Below, piece by piece: positions 1 through 8,575 of a DNA stretch of 25,023 bases. Position 1 is the first letter of the stretch, and every line of letters starts with the position of its first letter. A program made the position numbers and the translations under genes. Source of the DNA: a virus; IMG/VR virus record IMGVR_UViG_3300032053_000483, positions 1 to 25,023 of that record; one strand, 5' to 3'. Under the pieces are notes generated by a model, which was given only the letters and a program-made list of their open reading frames with translations, searched no databases and was not told the origin of the DNA.

Positions 1-180
1 CTCTCTAACGCTGTAAGCAAAAGCATATTTATACCAAACATCGGAGGAAGGAGAGCCAAAAAGAAAGACATAATCGGCATCGGGTCGTAATGTTTCAAAG
101 GTTTCCCAACCCATACTTAGGAGTCGCTTGTTAAGTGCTGAACCGAGAAACCCCGATTGACCAGTTATTGTTGCTTTCAT
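1..180 (-). CDS. NAD-dependent epimerase/dehydratase (SDR), 5' part only
   Basis: Only the first 60 codons are in the window; the gene runs off the low-coordinate edge. The N-terminus begins MKATITGQSGFLGSAL, the glycine-rich dinucleotide-binding turn (GxxGxxG) that follows the first beta strand of extended short-chain dehydrogenases, a family that includes sugar-nucleotide epimerases, reductases and dehydratases. The ATG overlaps the stop of the upstream glycosyltransferase gene by ATGA, so the two are translationally coupled. Being last in a glycosyltransferase/methyltransferase operon, it probably makes or modifies an activated sugar. The exact reaction cannot be told, because the catalytic YxxxK region lies outside the window. 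Confidence 0.75.
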   Translation of the reverse strand, partial: MKATITGQSGFLGSALNKRLLSMGWETFETLRPDADYVFLFGSPSSDVWYKYAFAYSVRE

Positions 181-1022
181 GGTAAGGCCAAGTACATCTT
201 GGCGACGTTTTCAATATGATAAAATTCTGCCCTCTCTAAATTCTTTTTGGCAACATCTTCATAGAGAATCGGGTCATCTTTAAGTTTCCTAAGCCATTCA
301 ATCATCTCATCTATGTTGTTTGCCGGAAGAAAACACCCCTCAAACTCCCTAACGTAGCTTTTTTCGGGATAAGCGACAGTAGGAATCCCCATAGAGGCAG
401 AATTACCCATCTTGTTAGGGTTGGCAAAAGGAGCAAGAAGTTTATACTTTGCCTGTGGCCGATAAACTACCTGAACATCAAGCGAAAGATAGAAATCAGC
501 TACATTTAGCCTCATTTCTTGTTGTTTATTCCCCTTATAGACATTCCAGTAATCTTCCTCGTATTTCAATTCCATGCCTATTGCTTCGACTTTTTTCCTA
601 AACTCGTCTGCCGGATATTGAAAAGAACTCTTTTGACCGATAATCCCCACTGTCTTGACTTCTCTTTGCGGTCTCAGTCTTCTTTCGAAGTTACAGTGTT
701 GGTGGGGAATCCAATAAACATCTTCTCTATGGAGAAACTTTTTCAAATAATCTTGGGCAGTTTGGGAAATTGCAATTACTCCGAACTCTGGGTGAGATTT
801 AAGGAACACCGATGCTTCATAAGAATCGTCTACGTCTGAATAAACGTGTTTGGGAGTAGTTTTGGGACATTCGGGATGAGGAGGAACAATTTTGACATAG
901 ATACAAAGGTCATTTTCATAACCTTCTGTCGGATTATTCTTCCCGTTGAGATAACGAGCCATTTGGGTTCCTCTGATATAACCTGAACCACCTCTGGTAT
1001 GAAAGAAACTAAATTTTTTCAT
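177..1022 (-). CDS. GT-B fold glycosyltransferase (GT1/GT4-like)
   Basis: 281 residues. The N-terminus MKKFSFFHTRGGSGYIRGTQ looks like the acceptor-side Rossmann start of a GT-B enzyme. The C-terminal half has the layout of a donor-binding domain: LAPFANPNKMGNSASMGIPTV (about residues 195-215) is the usual 'pick the right copy, gain or lose by choice' helix-strand segment, followed by a C-terminal helix series with a DDPILYEDVAKKN-type tail common in glycosyltransferases. Sugar and acceptor are unknown. Its start lies inside the end of the FkbM-type methyltransferase gene (14-bp overlap) with no clear Shine-Dalgarno, so coupled translation is likely. Family call from overall pattern, moderately sure. 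Confidence 0.65.
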   Translation of the reverse strand: MKKFSFFHTRGGSGYIRGTQMARYLNGKNNPTEGYENDLCIYVKIVPPHPECPKTTPKHVYSDVDDSYEASVFLKSHPEFGVIAISQTAQDYLKKFLHREDVYWIPHQHCNFERRLRPQREVKTVGIIGQKSSFQYPADEFRKKVEAIGMELKYEEDYWNVYKGNKQQEMRLNVADFYLSLDVQVVYRPQAKYKLLAPFANPNKMGNSASMGIPTVAYPEKSYVREFEGCFLPANNIDEMIEWLRKLKDDPILYEDVAKKNLERAEFYHIENVAKMYLALP

Positions 1023-1641
1023 ATACTATATCGTATCCATGATTTCTACCTTTTTTAAAAACAAAAGTCCGTCTAGCAATCTCTTTATACCTATGTTGTT
1101 CCATAAATAGTTCAATATCTTTTAATACGCAACAATCTTTATATGCTTCAAAATTAAAGGCTTCAGTTTTGATATACCTAAAGTTATCTAAAATAGGGAC
1201 TGATCCCTCCAAGATAAGCATCTCTGTACCCTGAGTATCTAGCACTAAGGCATCATATCTGCTAATATCAATGTTTTCTCTTTGTAATAAAGTAGGAAGG
1301 GTTATCCCTTTTAAATTAATTGTTTCTACATAGGTTATATTAGGCCATAGATCTTTATGATCATTAAACTCTAGTATTGACGATGATTCATATCTGTTAC
1401 TAGACAGGTGGAACTCATATTCTTTGTCATCTTCATCCGTAACTAGATATCTGAAAGCCTGCTGTTTAGGATAATCTCTAATTCTTCTTTTTAATAACCC
1501 AAAAACTCTTGGTATTGGTTCAACCCAAACAACATCTAAATTATATTGGTTATAGACTTCTCTTTCTTGGCCTAAACTAGCCCCAACATGAATTACTCCA
1601 GATACATTTTTCAAAAACTCGGTTGTGGCTACATCAATCAC
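1009..1641 (-). CDS. FkbM-family SAM-dependent methyltransferase
   Basis: 210 residues, starting at a GTG that overlaps the previous stop as GTGA, with a GGAGG ribosome site 8-9 bases upstream. Residues 16-25 (VIHVGASLGQ) form the SAM-binding glycine loop and VVWVEPIP (about 37-44) the acidic end of strand 2. YDALVLDTQGTEMLILEG (about 127-145) is the characteristic FkbM segment with the motif-IV Asp. FkbM-type enzymes O-methylate sugars or polyketides; here the neighbouring glycosyltransferases point to methylation of a glycan hydroxyl, for example as a chain cap. Methylation of a sugar is inference; the fold is clear. Confidence 0.85.
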   Translation of the reverse strand: MIDVATTEFLKNVSGVIHVGASLGQEREVYNQYNLDVVWVEPIPRVFGLLKRRIRDYPKQQAFRYLVTDEDDKEYEFHLSSNRYESSSILEFNDHKDLWPNITYVETINLKGITLPTLLQRENIDISRYDALVLDTQGTEMLILEGSVPILDNFRYIKTEAFNFEAYKDCCVLKDIELFMEQHRYKEIARRTFVFKKGRNHGYDIVYEKI

Positions 1642-3014
1642 TTATGATACCCTCCACTCCACATTTTAACTACATCTGTTACTTTTCCCCAAAGAGGGAT
1701 ATCAAATGCTCTTAATACTCCTAATGCTTTATTAGTACCCCAACTTACATTACCAAATCCTTCTGGATGGTTAAATTGGATAATACATGGGTTTGAATAG
1801 AACTCCTCGGTATTCCTTTCCGTTACTCCTAATCTCTTTTCGTATCTTCCGGGATCTCCCCATCTAGATAAATCAATCTTACTTTCATCAGGGAACTTAT
1901 TAAATCTTTCTTCCATAGCATCAACAATGTATTGTCTGGGAGCGATCAAGGCATTGACCACTTTCCTACCTATTCTATAAGAATAGATTGGTGGTTCTGA
2001 CCAAGTGAATACAGACCATCGGTTCATATTATAAAGGAAAACATCATCTCTACTTGGTCGTTTAGTGTGGAAATGCTCCCAAGAATAGAGAATATCATCC
2101 TCAACACTAGCGATATATTTTGTTTTAGCTTCTCTTGCCCCAATCATCAGTTGACGATAAATGTTTAAATGAGAACGCCCTATATCTCCTAAGCAAATGT
2201 TAGTACAATTATCTCCTAACATCTTCGGTTTCTGGGAAACAATTATCAATGGCAAACCATCAAGGGCTTTTAATAGTTGTTCTTCAATCTTGTTGAGAAA
2301 ATAAGGATTCGTTTCCTCAAGATGATTACAGGTATAGTAAATAGCAGTAAGGTCGGGTTCTCTCCTCTTTTTAACTTCTCCTTTTTTTTGTACAAACGAA
2401 GTTAAATAACTTGCTCTATTCCCAACTTTTATCTCAGTAGTGAACCCAGGATAAATCTCTGACAATAGAAATGACTCTTTCTCTCTATTCCAAAATTTAC
2501 AGTCTCCATCATCAGTTCGGTCAAGATTCCATTTGTGCATCCCGTGATAACCAAGTCTCTTTCCCTCATGGGCATGATGCCAAAAATAAATCCACCCGTC
2601 GGGTTTACATATCCTAACCATTTCTTTTAATGCTTTGTGGGGGTCAAGACAATGGTCAAGAGCGTTGGTACAATACACAATATCAAAGGAATCATCTTCA
2701 TAAGTTAAAGATTCCATATCCTGTTTCTCTATGGGAACAGGACTCTTTATCCCCTGTTCTTTCCAAATTCTGTTGTAATCATCTGCCAGTAAGTCTGAAG
2801 CAACTATGGTTACCATTACCCCCTCTTTCTTGTTACCAATAAGATTTATTGCTCCGGCTCCCAAGTTGGCAATCTTCACCTCTTTCTTGTCTCCAATCAT
2901 GGAGTTAAATAATTTATCTAATGGCCTATCTCCCTGAAGTGCAAATCCTTTTCGAGGAAACCACTCTTTCCAGAAATTAACCTCATCGTTTATTCCTTGT
3001 TCCCAATCGTTCAT
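1638..3014 (-). CDS. Fused SAM methyltransferase and GT-A-like glycosyltransferase
   Basis: 458 residues. The N-terminal half is a Methyltransf_11-type domain: ANLGAGA (49-55) is motif I, VASD (71-74) the acidic ribose-binding end of strand 2, DSFDIVYCTNALDH (108-121) motif IV with the usual DxVxxxxxxxH pattern, and KPDGWIYF (137-144) strand 5. The C-terminal half (about 220-458) starts a new domain with TAIYYTCNHLE and contains ASVEDDILYS (302-311), a DxD-like nucleotide-sugar/metal motif, then Trp-rich blocks; it resembles a GT-A glycosyltransferase. ATGA overlap with the upstream gene. Joining sugar transfer and methylation in one chain fits a pathway that methylates what it adds. The methyltransferase half is more certain than the glycosyltransferase half. 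Confidence 0.75.
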   Translation of the reverse strand: MNDWEQGINDEVNFWKEWFPRKGFALQGDRPLDKLFNSMIGDKKEVKIANLGAGAINLIGNKKEGVMVTIVASDLLADDYNRIWKEQGIKSPVPIEKQDMESLTYEDDSFDIVYCTNALDHCLDPHKALKEMVRICKPDGWIYFWHHAHEGKRLGYHGMHKWNLDRTDDGDCKFWNREKESFLLSEIYPGFTTEIKVGNRASYLTSFVQKKGEVKKRREPDLTAIYYTCNHLEETNPYFLNKIEEQLLKALDGLPLIIVSQKPKMLGDNCTNICLGDIGRSHLNIYRQLMIGAREAKTKYIASVEDDILYSWEHFHTKRPSRDDVFLYNMNRWSVFTWSEPPIYSYRIGRKVVNALIAPRQYIVDAMEERFNKFPDESKIDLSRWGDPGRYEKRLGVTERNTEEFYSNPCIIQFNHPEGFGNVSWGTNKALGVLRAFDIPLWGKVTDVVKMWSGGYHK

Positions 3015-3598
3015 TTAAACCTTTCTAATGGAAAAAAGTTACTAACAACACTTGTGTTCGGGTTGTACTTGGTAAAATCATATCTATATTTAAACAAGGG
3101 CCATATTTCGCTATATCTGTAACCTTTGCGGCGACCATGCCTGTAATCTTCGTATTCTGGGTTGGTATCGTGAATTACGATGTAATCAACCAAATTGACT
3201 AATCTTTTAATATCTACAATCCTTCTGCTGGTGGGATGTTGGTCTATTAACGCCAGCCCCCAATGCTTACAACTAAGATCAATCTCGTCAAAACTATCAA
3301 CCTTAAAGACTTTATCGGTATCGCTTTCTAAATCCCCATCAGTAAGCATAAGTGCCTCGGTGTCGGAGTCTCCATCTGTTTGAAAAGAAGTCGGTTTCCG
3401 TATTGCCCTATTGTACCAATACATATCGGTTTCGTATGAATAAAGAGTTCTACCACTCATTTCACAAAGCCACCGGAGTATATTGGTAGAAAAGAAACCC
3501 GTACCAAGTTCCAACACATCACCTTCCGACAACTCGAAGGCTCTTACTAATACTGGTAAGTGAGTGCCAACTAAAATCATGTTTTTCCCTGTGCTCAT
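3011..3598 (-). CDS. Class I SAM methyltransferase-like protein with acidic repeat insertion
   Basis: 195 residues, with a strong GGGAGGAG ribosome site. DVLELGTGFFSTNIL (27-41) is a SAM-binding motif I and TLYSYETD (51-58) the acidic end of strand 2. WGLALIDQHPTSRR (113-126) and DYIVIHDTNPEYED (138-151) match strands 4 and 5 of small sugar-linked methyltransferases (Methyltransf_24 type). Between them, residues 74-95 form an acidic stretch (TDGDSDTEALMLTDGDLESD) not expected in the family. Its DNA, read on the other strand, spells the Ser-Pro repeat of the gene at 6375-7403. The core fold appears otherwise complete. The substrate is probably a glycan or its precursor, from context. Confidence 0.7.
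   Translation of the reverse strand: MSTGKNMILVGTHLPVLVRAFELSEGDVLELGTGFFSTNILRWLCEMSGRTLYSYETDMYWYNRAIRKPTSFQTDGDSDTEALMLTDGDLESDTDKVFKVDSFDEIDLSCKHWGLALIDQHPTSRRIVDIKRLVNLVDYIVIHDTNPEYEDYRHGRRKGYRYSEIWPLFKYRYDFTKYNPNTSVVSNFFPLERFK
3314..3379 (-). repeat. Inverted copy of the Ser-Pro repeat DNA inside a methyltransferase gene
   Basis: On the plus strand this stretch reads SVSLSKSPSVSISASVSESP, the same alternating Ser-X peptide encoded on the minus strand at 6390-7040. On the minus strand it codes TDGDSDTEALMLTDGD, which lines up with TDGDTEGDLLILTDGD spelled by the plus strand at about 6973-7038. My hand alignment over 66 bases gives 42 identities. This is either a transposed or copied piece of the repeat or convergence in low-complexity sequence. 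Confidence 0.5.
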
Positions 3599-3608
3599 TT
3601 CTCCTCCC

Positions 3609-4481
3609 TTAAATCATTTTCCATAATTTTTGTAATATTATTTCCCAATTAAAATTAGTTTTAACATATTCTTTTTCTGTTTCCGCAACGGGTCGCACCC
3701 CTTTATCAAACAACCCTCTTAAATTCTCAGAGACATGAGTGTCTTCTGGAATAAACTCGGCTATCTCATTAAACCAATGTCTGTAATTTGGGGTATCAAA
3801 ACAAATCGGTCTCGCCCCGCAGAGTAAACCTTCAATTATAGGCAATTCAAATCCTTCCACCCTCCTCAATCCAGATACAAACTCGCATTGACTATAATAT
3901 TTAGCAAGGGTTTCATCATCCATATCGTTGCTATAAGTAATAATATCGGTATTCTCTCCTGTTCCCAGTTGAAATATTTTTCTATTAAGCCCTTGTACCG
4001 CCAATAATATCTCGTTCTTACATTCTTTATTCCAAGCCCTACCACTACCCGTACTAAGTATTAAATACTTACGTTCAGACTTAGTTTCCTTAAAGACATC
4101 ACTTTCTACTCCTAACGGGGCATAATAAAAGTTAAAATTAACTGGTGTTTGTTCTTCCTGGCATGATTTGACTAAATCATGGAAACTCCAAACTACCTCT
4201 GCCCTTTCCCACATTGGTCTCCAAATAGCGGTATTGGTACACTTGGTTAATTCTGCACCCCTCAAGTTTACTTGTACTATCGCATACTTCTTATTGTTGT
4301 TAATCGCCCAATCAACCTGCTTTTGGGTATATCTTCTATTCCTATATGAAGCAATAAAAACTAAATCAGCCTCTTCTTTGGTACTAACCAACTCATGTTC
4401 GAGTGGTAAATATTTTTTGATTGCATCGGCAATTCTTGTTATCGCCCTATCTTGAACACAAAACTCAAGGTAGACTTTCAT
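3609..4481 (-). CDS. GT4-like glycosyltransferase (GT-B fold)
   Basis: 290 residues from the ATG at 4481, which overlaps the upstream stop (TAATG) and has GGGAGG about 6 bases away; an in-frame GTG 24 bases upstream lacks support. The C-terminal half carries the GT4 donor-site signature: EGFELPIIEGLLCGARPICFD has the EX7E motif (Glu of EGFE and Glu of IIEG). LILSTGSGRAWNKEC opens the C-terminal Rossmann domain, and FVSGLRRVEGFE precedes the motif. Likely transfers a sugar from a nucleotide donor in the cytoplasm. Donor and acceptor cannot be read. The position between two methyltransferases supports a role in making a methylated glycan. Confidence 0.8.
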   Translation of the reverse strand: MKVYLEFCVQDRAITRIADAIKKYLPLEHELVSTKEEADLVFIASYRNRRYTQKQVDWAINNNKKYAIVQVNLRGAELTKCTNTAIWRPMWERAEVVWSFHDLVKSCQEEQTPVNFNFYYAPLGVESDVFKETKSERKYLILSTGSGRAWNKECKNEILLAVQGLNRKIFQLGTGENTDIITYSNDMDDETLAKYYSQCEFVSGLRRVEGFELPIIEGLLCGARPICFDTPNYRHWFNEIAEFIPEDTHVSENLRGLFDKGVRPVAETEKEYVKTNFNWEIILQKLWKMI

Positions 4482-5062
4482 TAATCCGCCTCCCTTACCC
4501 ACCAATAAACCGGTTGTTCATCGGCCCCCCGATCCCTCAATTTATTCGTAAGAGGGTCGGTTAATTCAAATTTAATACCATGTGCCTTAGTATAGTCATT
4601 AACCGCCTCAACTACTCCGGCATAGTTTTGATGGCCTTTTTTAAAAGCATAATAATCATCGCCCGACACAACACCGCCGATTTTAACTCTTTTCGTCCAT
4701 TCGATTAAATCCTGCATCACATAGTCAAAGGCATGATTAGCGTCAATAAAAACAAAGTCCAGTGAAAAGTATTTAAACTTCTTGACCGCCTCCATACTCA
4801 TTTCTTTCATTATGTGAGTATTATACTTAGCCAATCTCTCGGTGGCGGCTTTAAAATTACCGTCATTTCTTGCATAACTGCCCGACCAACGATTCCCATG
4901 ATACGGTCGCCAAATATCAATGCACCAAAGTTCCAAATCTGGCATTGCCTGACACATCGCCTCGGAGAAAACTCCTCCAGCTACCCCAATCTCGGCTCCC
5001 TTTTTAAAACCCAACTCGTTAAAGTATTTCAAAAGTTCATATTTGCTCTTCACGGGTTCCAT
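4481..5062 (-). CDS. SAM-dependent methyltransferase (Methyltransf_24 type)
   Basis: 193 residues. GAEIGVAGGVFSEAM (22-36) is motif I, LELWCIDIW (43-51) strand 2, and YFSLDFVFIDANHAFDYVMQDL (about 98-119) is the diagnostic strand-4 segment of this group, whose IDxxHxxxxxxxDL pattern is shared with sugar and cephalosporin hydroxylase-like methyltransferases. GGVVSGDDYY follows as strand 5 with the metal-type DD. The start overlaps the end of the GT2 gene by 26 bases, with AAGAAGG directly before the ATG. Likely O-methylates a sugar in the glycan built by the neighbouring transferases (inference). Confidence 0.8.
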   Translation of the reverse strand: MEPVKSKYELLKYFNELGFKKGAEIGVAGGVFSEAMCQAMPDLELWCIDIWRPYHGNRWSGSYARNDGNFKAATERLAKYNTHIMKEMSMEAVKKFKYFSLDFVFIDANHAFDYVMQDLIEWTKRVKIGGVVSGDDYYAFKKGHQNYAGVVEAVNDYTKAHGIKFELTDPLTNKLRDRGADEQPVYWWVREAD

Positions 5063-5930
5063 CCTTCTTTATCTCTGCTAAACCATCAGTCTCAACGCTT
5101 GGCACTTCCTCGGCATTATCATTCCATGTCGGGACAGGGGCGAATTTATCCACCAACCATCTCACATTATATATTTGTTTCCGCCAGTTTTGTTGAGTCA
5201 ACCACTTCTTAACGTGTTCCTGGGCTTTTAATCCTTCCGAACTGGGTAAACTGTAACCTCTTGATTCGTTTTTATGCCAGTGGGCGTACCAGGTCTTCTT
5301 GTTTACCTTGACCTTACCGCCCGACAACCAACACTTTAACCCGATTTCTTGAAACTCGACCCAGAAAGTACCATAGTTTGCCTCATCCATAAGGTCTAGG
5401 TAGTCAAAATAGGTCTTTTTCATAAACCAAACACTTCCTTGATTGCTCATCGTGTCATCAATCAGGACTTCTTTTAACCTTAAATCGTGGTTTTTCTCAT
5501 CCCAGACCACTCCATGAAGTTCACTGGAGAGATACATATAGTCGATGGGGTACTTATTGTCCGTCCTTTCTTCAATTTGCCACTTCTGAGGGTCTAGGGC
5601 ATACCTTCTTGGCACGACAACCCAATTATCTTCACATTCTGCCTTCAATATCTCATCATAACCCTCTCCGAACATACAATGAGCATCCAATTTCATCAGA
5701 TAGTCACCTTTAGCGATTGCACGAGCCGAATTAATAGCATTTCTCATCCCTTTAGCGGTACTGAAGTGTAAATAGATAACTCTGGGGTCTTCAACTATCT
5801 CATTTGCGGGCATCCAATATCCATCAAGAACAACAATAATTTCTATTTCTCCTTTGGCTTTGGACAGTAAGTCCAATATGGTTTTCTGAAGATATGGTTC
5901 GTTGCGGGCTGGAATAATGGCAGTAATCAT
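5037..5930 (-). CDS. Family 2 (GT-A) glycosyltransferase
   Basis: 297 residues from the ATG at 5930; an open extension to a GTG at 5990 adds 20 residues, but GT2 proteins usually begin within a few residues of the first strand, here MITAIIPARNE. IIVVLDGYW (31-39) is the second strand with the nucleotide-binding Asp. DYLMKLDAHCMFGEGYDE (77-93) contains a DxH motif (Asp82, His84) of the kind found in GalNAc-transferase-like GT2 enzymes, and GTFWVEFQEIGLKCW carries the acceptor-side Glu region. It begins the modification operon right after two virion-type genes. A polypeptide acceptor is possible because DxH enzymes include O-GalNAc transferases, but this is inference. No clear Shine-Dalgarno at either start. 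Confidence 0.85.
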   Translation of the reverse strand: MITAIIPARNEPYLQKTILDLLSKAKGEIEIIVVLDGYWMPANEIVEDPRVIYLHFSTAKGMRNAINSARAIAKGDYLMKLDAHCMFGEGYDEILKAECEDNWVVVPRRYALDPQKWQIEERTDNKYPIDYMYLSSELHGVVWDEKNHDLRLKEVLIDDTMSNQGSVWFMKKTYFDYLDLMDEANYGTFWVEFQEIGLKCWLSGGKVKVNKKTWYAHWHKNESRGYSLPSSEGLKAQEHVKKWLTQQNWRKQIYNVRWLVDKFAPVPTWNDNAEEVPSVETDGLAEIKKDGTREEQI

Positions 5931-5980
5931 ATTTATATGTTCTGGCTCGGTACAGACATAGAAACCAGACTCATAATCTA

Positions 5981-6010
5981 CATATAACACATGAAATTAG
6001 TTTAATGCAA
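5981..6010 (-). promoter_or_regulatory. Weak candidate promoter before the glycosylation operon
   Basis: On the minus strand TTGCAT (6005-6010) and TATATG (5981-5986) are 18 bp apart, with a TGT in the extended -10 position. Predicted transcription starts near 5974, upstream of the ATG at 5930 but downstream of the alternative GTG at 5990, which would support the shorter GT2 start. Both boxes are imperfect. Confidence 0.3.
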
Positions 6011-6015
6011 GGGGA

Positions 6016-6369
6016 TTACTTGTAGGTGACAGTTATATCCTGAGCCGTTACCGAAGAAACAATAGTCAAACCACCAGTAAAGGCAACATCGTAAACAAGA
6101 GTACAATTTTGGGGACTAGTGGGAGAAGTAACCGTTGCAATTATCGGCCCACCAGCTTCATTATTGTCATAAATCTTAATGACGCCGGTTGCTACTGGTG
6201 TATTAAAAACAACTGAGTGTAATACCCCTGCTTCGGTTTTAAGCACAAAAGTATTTAAGGTAAGAATATTCCGATGGTCGAATGGGCCGATAGAAACTGG
6301 CACTTTACCATTCACATCCACAACCGCTTGAACAATATTACCATTTGTATCTTTAAATGAATCTTGCAT
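6016..6369 (-). CDS. Small beta-rich phage structural protein (putative)
   Basis: 117 residues, no signal peptide or membrane segment. The sequence is almost entirely alternating hydrophobic and polar strands (for example VPVSIGPF, LTLNTFVLKT, GVIKIYDN, TIVSSVTAQDITVTYK), like small virion decoration or fibre-associated beta-sandwich proteins. It follows the Ser-repeat protein gene after only 5 bases and lacks its own clear ribosome site, so the two are probably made together and could act together on the particle. No family recognised with certainty. Confidence 0.5.
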   Translation of the reverse strand: MQDSFKDTNGNIVQAVVDVNGKVPVSIGPFDHRNILTLNTFVLKTEAGVLHSVVFNTPVATGVIKIYDNNEAGGPIIATVTSPTSPQNCTLVYDVAFTGGLTIVSSVTAQDITVTYK

Positions 6370-6374
6370 ATATT

Positions 6375-7403
6375 TTAAATATCAGGATAACTTGGTGATG
6401 GTGATGGACTCAAACTTACCGATGAACTTGGTGATGGCGATAAACTCGGACTCAAGGAGACGGACACACTCGGGCTGACAGATGGTGACAAACTAACACT
6501 AACCGAAGGACTCAATGATACCGAGACCGAAGGACTTAACGATGGTGAACGACTAATACTGACTGACGGGCTAAGACTCACACTGACTGAAGGTGAGACG
6601 CTTGGCGACCAGCTAGCACTCGGCGATTTGGAAGGTGAAGATGATGGACTTGGACTCTTTGAAGTACTGACTGATGGGCTGACACTTGGACTCAACGAGA
6701 CGCTGACTGATGGACTTAAAGATACTGATACACTTGGACTTACTGAAGGCGAAAGGCTGACACTCACTGAAGGTGATAGAGAGACACTCACGCTTGGAGA
6801 CAAGGATACCGAGACACTTGGAGAAACGCTCGGCGAAACTGAAAGACTTGGCGATAGGGAGACTGAAACACTCGGTGATTCCGAAAGACTTGGAGAGAGA
6901 GAAACACTCACAGAAGGCGACAAAGAGACAGAGACTGACGGAGAAACACTTGGCGAGAGTGAAACCGATACGGACGGTGACACAGAGGGAGACTTGCTTA
7001 TACTTACAGATGGAGACAATGAGAGTGAAACTGATGGCGAGAATGACCCGATACTTTCAGTTCCAGTAACCAATGACCAAACGGCAGTCGTTGAAGTGCC
7101 GGTATTAGTATAAAGATTGGAACCTGTTTTGTTTAGATGCCAGAAGAAAGCACCTTGCATAAATCCTGAATAACTAGTCGGTAAGGTAGTGCCTTCTGCC
7201 TCTAAAATCGTATCAGCACTAGTTGCTGGTAGGTTGGTTAATGAAGCTGAATAACGAAGCACCCGATTAGTTAAATAAGGAGTCAAAGCAGTTAAAAAAG
7301 CCGTTTCAAGAGTTTTTCTTTGTGTAGAAGTGATAGCCTCAATTCTTGCGATTTCGGCTTGTGTTTCTGCTGGTAAGTCCGTTTTTATTTCAAATGTCGC
7401 CAT
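6375..7403 (-). CDS. Virion-type protein with long Ser-Pro/Ser-Val mucin-like repeat
   Basis: 342 residues in two parts. Residues 1-120 look folded: a helical start (TQAEIARIEAITSTQRKTL), then GTTLPTSYSGFMQGAFFWHL and a strand-rich end. Residues 122-338 are a degenerate repeat in which nearly every second residue is Ser, with Pro, Val, Leu or Ile between (SPSVSVSLSPSVSPSVSVSL). It ends SYPDI. Codons for the same peptide unit vary (AGT, AGC, TCA, TCG, TCC), so the peptide pattern appears kept by selection and not by fresh slippage. It lies after the capsid gene and before a glycosyltransferase operon, which suggests a surface protein that is O-glycosylated. Function inferred only from composition and context. 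Confidence 0.65.
   Translation of the reverse strand: MATFEIKTDLPAETQAEIARIEAITSTQRKTLETAFLTALTPYLTNRVLRYSASLTNLPATSADTILEAEGTTLPTSYSGFMQGAFFWHLNKTGSNLYTNTGTSTTAVWSLVTGTESIGSFSPSVSLSLSPSVSISKSPSVSPSVSVSLSPSVSPSVSVSLSPSVSVSLSPSLSESPSVSVSLSPSLSVSPSVSPSVSVSLSPSVSVSLSPSVSVSLSPSVSPSVSVSLSPSVSVSLSPSVSPSVSTSKSPSPSSSPSKSPSASWSPSVSPSVSVSLSPSVSISRSPSLSPSVSVSLSPSVSVSLSPSVSPSVSVSLSPSLSPSPSSSVSLSPSPSPSYPDI
6390..7040 (-). repeat. Degenerate tandem repeat coding Ser-X-Ser-X peptide
   Basis: About 217 codons with a core unit near SPSVSVSL (18-30 bp), arranged irregularly. The opposite strand is also open across the array (6628-7113) and reads acidic TDG/TEGD/TLGD units; this is a by-product of the repeat but matters for the insertion at 3314-3379. 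Synonymous codon drift between units indicates an old array. Confidence 0.9.
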
Positions 7404-7462: not shown

Positions 7463-8575
7463 TTAAGCGAATGTTGCGTATAGTTCTGCCGCAAAATGTC
7501 GGCGAGAATCTGTCACCTTGCATCCATATACGAACAAGTCCTTGTAGGCTGACCCAAAGTCACCGGTGATATCTTCTTCGATATCGGCTTCTAATAGTTT
7601 CTCGGCAAAGGTCATCCAGTTAGAATGTCCTGCGAGAATCCTGAACCCATCGGTGTTGTTTCCAGTCAATCTATTTGACTTAAACACTTTGAATCCCTGC
7701 AATTCGGTGATAAATCCGTTCTTCACCAGTTCTTGATATGCTTCTGGAACGTGTAGCACGACTCCAGATGCCCGAACTAGCGTTGATTCGAACTCAGGCG
7801 GTACAACCAGGAATCTGTCTGAATCCGGGACGGATGAATAACCGAATCTCTCGGCAATGTCCAGTTTCTGTTTCAAAAGAGAAATCTTCTGCAACAGGTT
7901 GGCTGTCGTGAGACTTATGGCAGAAATTGCCTCTACCACATAAGATGCACCAGCGATTGCCCCGCCTTTGTATTGAGAAGTGACATCATCTAAGTCGTCC
8001 TCAATAAATCCTGTGGTCGTATTGGTCACTGATTTAACCCGATACCATTTGGAATGACCAACGGCTTTAATGCCCCGGCCAACCCAAGTTGAATCACATG
8101 GAGTGCCCCCGGCGACAGTAAATGCTCCTGTGTCTACAAGAATGGTAATCGTGGTTGCATCATCGGCATCTGTGCCGACTCTGTTCCCTGCCCCGACATC
8201 AGCGTATTTCCCGAACACGAACGTATCCATGTTCTTATTCCTTTCGTCGGCCTTCTGGGAAACAATGGTTGCGTGTGGGTTCTTAATATAAGACAACCAT
8301 TTATCGATGGTATATTCCTTCCAATAGAAAGATTTATACGTATCGATAGTAAGCGTGGCATTATTCTCGTACAGAGACTCTACTACCAGGCCACCTTTGG
8401 TGTAGGTTTGTTCCGAAATTCGATTAAAGTTGAGTATATTCAACTTTGAACCGACGCCGTTAATTTCTCCCTCGTAATCTCGATTAACGATTTTGTCAAT
8501 GAGGCTCTTATCGTAGACTTCCTTCATTAACTTTTGGGAAAAACCTTCGGCTACTTTAGTAGCATATGCGGACAT
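7463..8575 (-). CDS. Major capsid protein (HK97 fold, P22 coat-like)
   Basis: 370 residues with a very strong AGAAGGAGG ribosome site. The order terminase, portal, scaffold-like protein, this gene is the standard head module. The N-terminus (GFSQKLMKEVYDKSLIDKIVNRDYEGEI) and TLTIDTYKSFYWKEYTIDKW fit the N-arm and E-loop/long-helix region of P22-type coat proteins. FGYSSVPDSDRFLVVPPEF and a C-terminal strand series ending VTDSRRHFAAELYATFA match the P and A domains. Residues about 145-220 (TILVDTGAFTVAGG to ITSQ-like strands) are a beta-rich insertion comparable to an I-domain. Has its own probable promoter. Confidence 0.8.
   Translation of the reverse strand: MSAYATKVAEGFSQKLMKEVYDKSLIDKIVNRDYEGEINGVGSKLNILNFNRISEQTYTKGGLVVESLYENNATLTIDTYKSFYWKEYTIDKWLSYIKNPHATIVSQKADERNKNMDTFVFGKYADVGAGNRVGTDADDATTITILVDTGAFTVAGGTPCDSTWVGRGIKAVGHSKWYRVKSVTNTTTGFIEDDLDDVTSQYKGGAIAGASYVVEAISAISLTTANLLQKISLLKQKLDIAERFGYSSVPDSDRFLVVPPEFESTLVRASGVVLHVPEAYQELVKNGFITELQGFKVFKSNRLTGNNTDGFRILAGHSNWMTFAEKLLEADIEEDITGDFGSAYKDLFVYGCKVTDSRRHFAAELYATFA

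Follow-up and report, generated by a model that had tools for sequence, protein, structure and literature searches.

The window analysed here, the whole 25,023-base stretch of a virus record, is a partial genome that contains the head block of a tailed phage. The terminase and the major capsid protein of this block (the latter at 7463..8575, minus strand; PHROG 267 major head protein, E 2.9e-23) were assigned by family match, the portal and a scaffold-like protein by position. Just downstream of the capsid gene lies an open reading frame for a Ser-Pro repeat protein of 342 amino acids (6375..7403, minus strand), composed of a conserved N-domain of about 114 residues and a following array (6381..7058, minus strand, delimited by a six-frame scan for alternating Ser); orthologues of this protein are found in nearly all relatives recruited via the major capsid protein (up to 92% identical). 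Past the repeat gene, and directly adjoining it, a block of glycosyltransferase- and methyltransferase-type genes extends over positions 1-6000, an arrangement kept in the related contig L002, and this block could serve the sugar modification of the Ser-rich protein. Two further features of L002 should be recorded. Its terminase large subunit (4401-6425) has 674 residues versus 398 in the window and carries an apparent intein-like insertion (CVDGNTLVDTTKGQIKIKNL...VEDTCCYSINGGILVSNC), which is overlapped by an HNH-like ORF (5755-6267) and which the terminase of the window lacks; an ORF at 1588-2325 contains an Ala-rich repeat (AAYAAADAAHAAAYAGVYAVNAAYAG...).

The gene at 3011..3598 (minus strand) encodes a SAM-methyltransferase-like protein of 195 amino acids, described here on the basis of its ORF, its homologues, an AlphaFold model and Foldseek matches. 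Positions 3314-3379 form a clean insertion of 66 bp, or 22 residues (residues 74-95), in this protein. Homologues were gathered from 80 loci via the capsid protein and from 56 loci via the methyltransferase alignment, and residues 74-95 face a gap in every one found (about 60 phage contigs, L009 ending before the insertion site; of the 84 rows in one of the alignments, many repeat a contig in overlapping stretches, and the window itself is included). This includes the two nearest, L003 and L002, in which the sequence runs cleanly across the insertion site (marked by a slash) as ...RKPVPFQ/KVFKIDSF... and ...KTPNFYH/KVFKVENY..., respectively. Most homologues are 161-174 residues long, compared with 195 in the window. 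The site tolerates changes in length, since the loop is a few residues longer there in L105, L122 and L078, none of these loops being acidic or array-like. The initial annotation, made from the sequence alone, had proposed residues 74-95 as the segment to be compared with homologues, and it is exactly this segment that the homologues lack, its TDGD motif included. The insertion is known from one contig, as no second carrier was found among the records searched; a single-sequence search of viral contigs and phage records for close relatives of the methyltransferase returned nothing, and searches with the N-domain of the repeat protein and with the L003 methyltransferase yielded neither a closer donor nor a second carrier. 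A match in an Isosphaeraceae record (L082, RAINQPTLFQTDGDSD) was dismissed as coincidence: it owes its detection to the peptide with which the search was seeded and occupies the end of an ORF that is unrelated, with no methyltransferase context.

On the plus strand the inserted segment reads as the Ser-Pro repeat peptide SVSLSKSPSVSISASVSESPSV, and in the frame of the enzyme, on the minus strand, as TDGDSDTEALMLTDGDLESDTD. In an ungapped search of the 66-mer against both strands of 82 loci (1.8 Mb in all), its three best matches were in L002 (11517; 49 of 66 positions), in L003 (1589; 44 of 66) and in the window's own array (6970-7035, minus strand; 42 of 66). These three places are orthologous to each other: each comprises the opening units of the Ser-Pro array of one of the three closest phages, in inverted orientation with respect to the enzyme gene. 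Compared pairwise (pairwise table), these arrays agree at only 37-45 of the 66 positions, so that the insert takes its place among them as a fourth orthologue would. At 61 of its 66 sites the insert agrees with at least one of the three, the maximum among 15,496 other alternating-Ser windows being 57; none of these windows equals the insert by best match, by sum or by agreement with any of the three, and one draws level when the majority base is the standard. The codons AGY-ATW-AGY (Ser-Ile-Ser) stand at the identical place in the insert and in all three arrays. In a search for the array-start pattern, no loci other than L002, L003 and L142 came up, and the gene in L142 is an unrelated array gene.

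When 3290-3400 was aligned locally with the reverse-complemented array, the score was 56.5, and nowhere else in the window scored as high (next best 48); of 2000 dinucleotide-shuffled queries one reached this score, and of 1000 shuffled arrays none. Taken alone, the shuffle result is moderate and only suggestive, the site having been picked out of 25 kb, but the objection of multiple testing falls because the gap in the homologues, which is the decisive result, delimits the segment independently of the repeat match. The initial annotation had seen, between core strands of a small methyltransferase, a piece of the Ser-Pro repeat in inverted orientation that matched the window's own array at 42 of 66 bases by hand alignment, and had suggested a comparison with shuffled controls; this description stands, the insert being in frame, the 42 of 66 exact and ungapped, and the match exceeding the controls. 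It had also placed the repeat gene on the other strand, which applies in so far as the plus strand within the enzyme gene spells the repeat peptide, the two genes themselves both lying on the minus strand.

How array DNA can be read backwards at all follows from the register in which it landed. The third codon position of the Ser-Pro frame faces the third codon position of the enzyme frame; in this register, a TCN Ser becomes Asp or Glu (GAN) and an AGY Ser becomes Leu. Because the third positions face each other, inverted array DNA is almost always stop-free and acidic: this antisense frame is free of stops in 99% of the 66-nt windows of the three arrays and in 87% of those in all arrays of the group, whereas the other two antisense frames are stop-free in 4% and 19% of windows in all arrays. 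That the repeat gives usable frames in both directions, as had been supposed, is thereby borne out. It should also be noted that the long antisense ORFs opposite arrays (6628-7113 in the window, 68-2293 in L142) are a mechanical outcome of this register and not evidence of genes.

No family in Pfam, PHROGs or NCBIfam was found for the methyltransferase. Its model and sequence identify it, at the level of prediction, as class I SAM-methyltransferase-like, with a Rossmann-like order of elements and a SAM-binding motif I (VLELGTGFFST) that contains the family-invariant E30, G32 and G34. The AlphaFold model, built on a 19-sequence alignment, has a mean pLDDT of 84.4 and a pTM of 0.83, with values above 90 in the core and of about 50 at residues 71-90, between helix 59-65 and core strand 95-99; thus the acidic loop between core elements that had been anticipated is present in the prediction as a low-confidence loop. 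The insert contributes nine acidic and no basic residues, the rest of the protein 21 acidic and 24 basic ones. Since the core is modelled confidently, the top Foldseek matches are methyltransferases (TM 0.4-0.6) and all invariant residues of the family are kept, the predicted enzyme is probably intact and bears an acidic disordered loop.

We consider it very probable, on the sequence comparisons given above, that a 66-bp stretch from the array start was copied in inverted orientation into the nearby methyltransferase gene, the recipient being this phage lineage itself or a relative that passed the gene on to it. The donor array would have been that of the Ser-Pro gene which follows the capsid gene, a few kb from the methyltransferase gene. 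The insertion itself, its clean in-frame edges, its origin in the array start and its inverted orientation can be read in the DNA; the route is inferred, a one-off template switch during replication or the illegitimate capture of a short DNA fragment being the most likely and the simplest account. Inverted orientation and clean edges are as in template-switch or illegitimate insertion, and junction homology amounts to 1 nt, at one junction, in bases that have diverged since. Survival of the insert may have depended on three circumstances: its length is a multiple of three; the wobble positions of the array came to lie opposite those of the enzyme, which would turn TCN Ser into Asp or Glu and AGY Ser into Leu with hardly any stops; and the landing site would be a loop at the surface, with a helix on one side and a core strand on the other, where disordered acidic sequence could be tolerated.

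With 74% identity to the insert, the best match (L002) is not the donor itself, nor does the insert look like a plain copy of the own array as it is today. Seventeen sites of the insert match exactly one of the three arrays, namely L002 at nine, L003 at seven and the own array at one (P ~0.01 for so few), and the present own array, some 3-3.6 kb away, is therefore probably not the direct donor. Either the start of the own array has changed since, or a related phage was the site of the event and the gene was exchanged, so that the event would be older or the donor a relative. Exchange among relatives is plausible, as the capsid gene is nearest to that of L002 and the methyltransferase nearest to that of L003.

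A different question is whether the array possesses machinery of its own. The Ser-Pro array could carry, or be moved by, a dedicated transposase- or retroelement-like mechanism that inserts it in either orientation, in the manner of Rickettsia palindromic elements (RPEs). Sense arrays do follow up to 32 N-terminal clusters (a number that depends on the cut-off and on fragmentary contigs), among them F5/8-type carbohydrate-binding domains, and at least two array genes are present in 29 of the 97 loci with arrays, to which the inverted case may be added. However, when 108 non-redundant loci (1.4 Mb) were scanned in six frames, no further strong inverted case appeared outside arrays, and this single intragenic copy stands against the multiple dispersed copies of an RPE-like element. 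No inverted repeat, palindrome or terminal inverted repeats were found in 3270-3420 and no target-site duplication at the insert, where erosion since insertion is possible; no reverse transcriptase (RVT_1, E up to 1) was detected in the records of the window, a partial genome, and of L002. The sense arrays, moreover, are long tandem modules rather than copies of a uniform unit. We therefore regard a dedicated mobile repeat as improbable. In sense orientation the array proves to be a promiscuous, linker-like module, which fits a repeated spread of the module. The suggestion in the initial annotation that the repeat jumps in either orientation thus holds for the existence of one inverted fragment and for the sense spread to varied proteins, and is not supported where a mobile element is implied: the inverted insert is one well-documented event and not yet evidence for a repeat moved by its own machinery. 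Two sense arrays found in other contigs are reported here for their own sake. In L125 (13589-16012) an array is joined to an ORF with a glycosyltransferase-like N-terminus (without a Pfam match), followed by other domains, and in L038 (2280-2609) an ORF of 109 amino acids opens with a Ser-Pro stretch (MKNKNKFSFSLSRSPSPSRSDSP...), for which no stretch-less homologue was found in the loci at hand.

Three known systems are nearest to the present case. RPEs (Ogata et al. 2000, as reviewed in PMC2229807) are palindromic, 105-146 bp long, flanked by terminal inverted repeats and present in many copies (19 reading frames), and the tested one, in guanylate kinase, is described there as neutral and tolerated. 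The likeness lies in repeat-derived DNA standing in frame within conserved enzyme genes, and the differences in the single copy of 66 bp, the lack of a palindrome and a source that is itself coding repeat DNA. PARCELs (PMC2996958) comprise a 25-residue motif encoded by DNA with dyad symmetry; they resemble the Ser-Pro arrays as coding tandem repeats dispersed across different genes, with a history of intra-genomic shuffling and transfer, and differ from them in that inversion of a Ser-Pro array changes the encoded peptide greatly, into an acidic one, and the insert region is without an inverted repeat. Template-switch mutations in yeast (PMC8604942) are local, occur between the arms of inverted repeats and change up to five neighbouring residues. 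They likewise copy nearby sequence in inverted orientation into a reading frame through an ordinary replication error, whereas here 22 residues were added, and on the present map some 3.6 kb separate the donor from the insert. No relevant literature was found on Ser-rich repeat arrays of phages.

It is very unlikely that the resemblance arose by convergence, that is, from an acidic low-complexity loop grown by local duplication, whose GAN codons happen to spell alternating Ser on the other strand. The insert does hold TDGD twice, and where the scaffold genes of these phages encode acidic stretches, the antisense frames are indeed Ser-rich. These frames, however, read as SGSG-type and not SPSV-type and sit in an ordinary Glu-rich linker, and were for that reason rejected as further inverted copies. 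Codon shuffles of the insert reached at most 42 matches, and at most 45 when every acidic position was kept, against the 49 observed (0 of 300 in each case); the best matches fall on one orthologous place in three related phages; and the codon choice in AGY-ATW-AGY is one that acidic convergence would not predict. Chance acidic convergence is accordingly rejected, and since no codon shuffle and no other array window reaches the match, the insert is an inverted copy of array DNA. Less probable still is a chimeric assembly, conceivable for a single contig of metagenomic origin, as 24 of the 66 sites of the insert depart from the own array and two clean in-frame junctions, 66 bp apart and coinciding exactly with the homologue gap, would hardly be produced by misassembly.

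The copying of an array start into the methyltransferase gene is a rare case in which the source, the orientation, the register and the landing site of a new protein segment are all legible from the sequence. A coding tandem repeat copied backwards yields a usable peptide of quite different chemistry, and it does so by a simple rule: where third codon positions face each other, TCN Ser becomes Asp or Glu and stops are nearly excluded. One may speculate, although we think it rather unlikely, that the arrays form a reversible coding stock, giving Ser-Pro stalks in the forward direction and stop-free acidic loops when inverted, pieces of which, in either orientation, would recurrently seed new segments in unrelated phage proteins. 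How frequently repeats seed protein parts in reverse can be counted in this array-rich group of phages.
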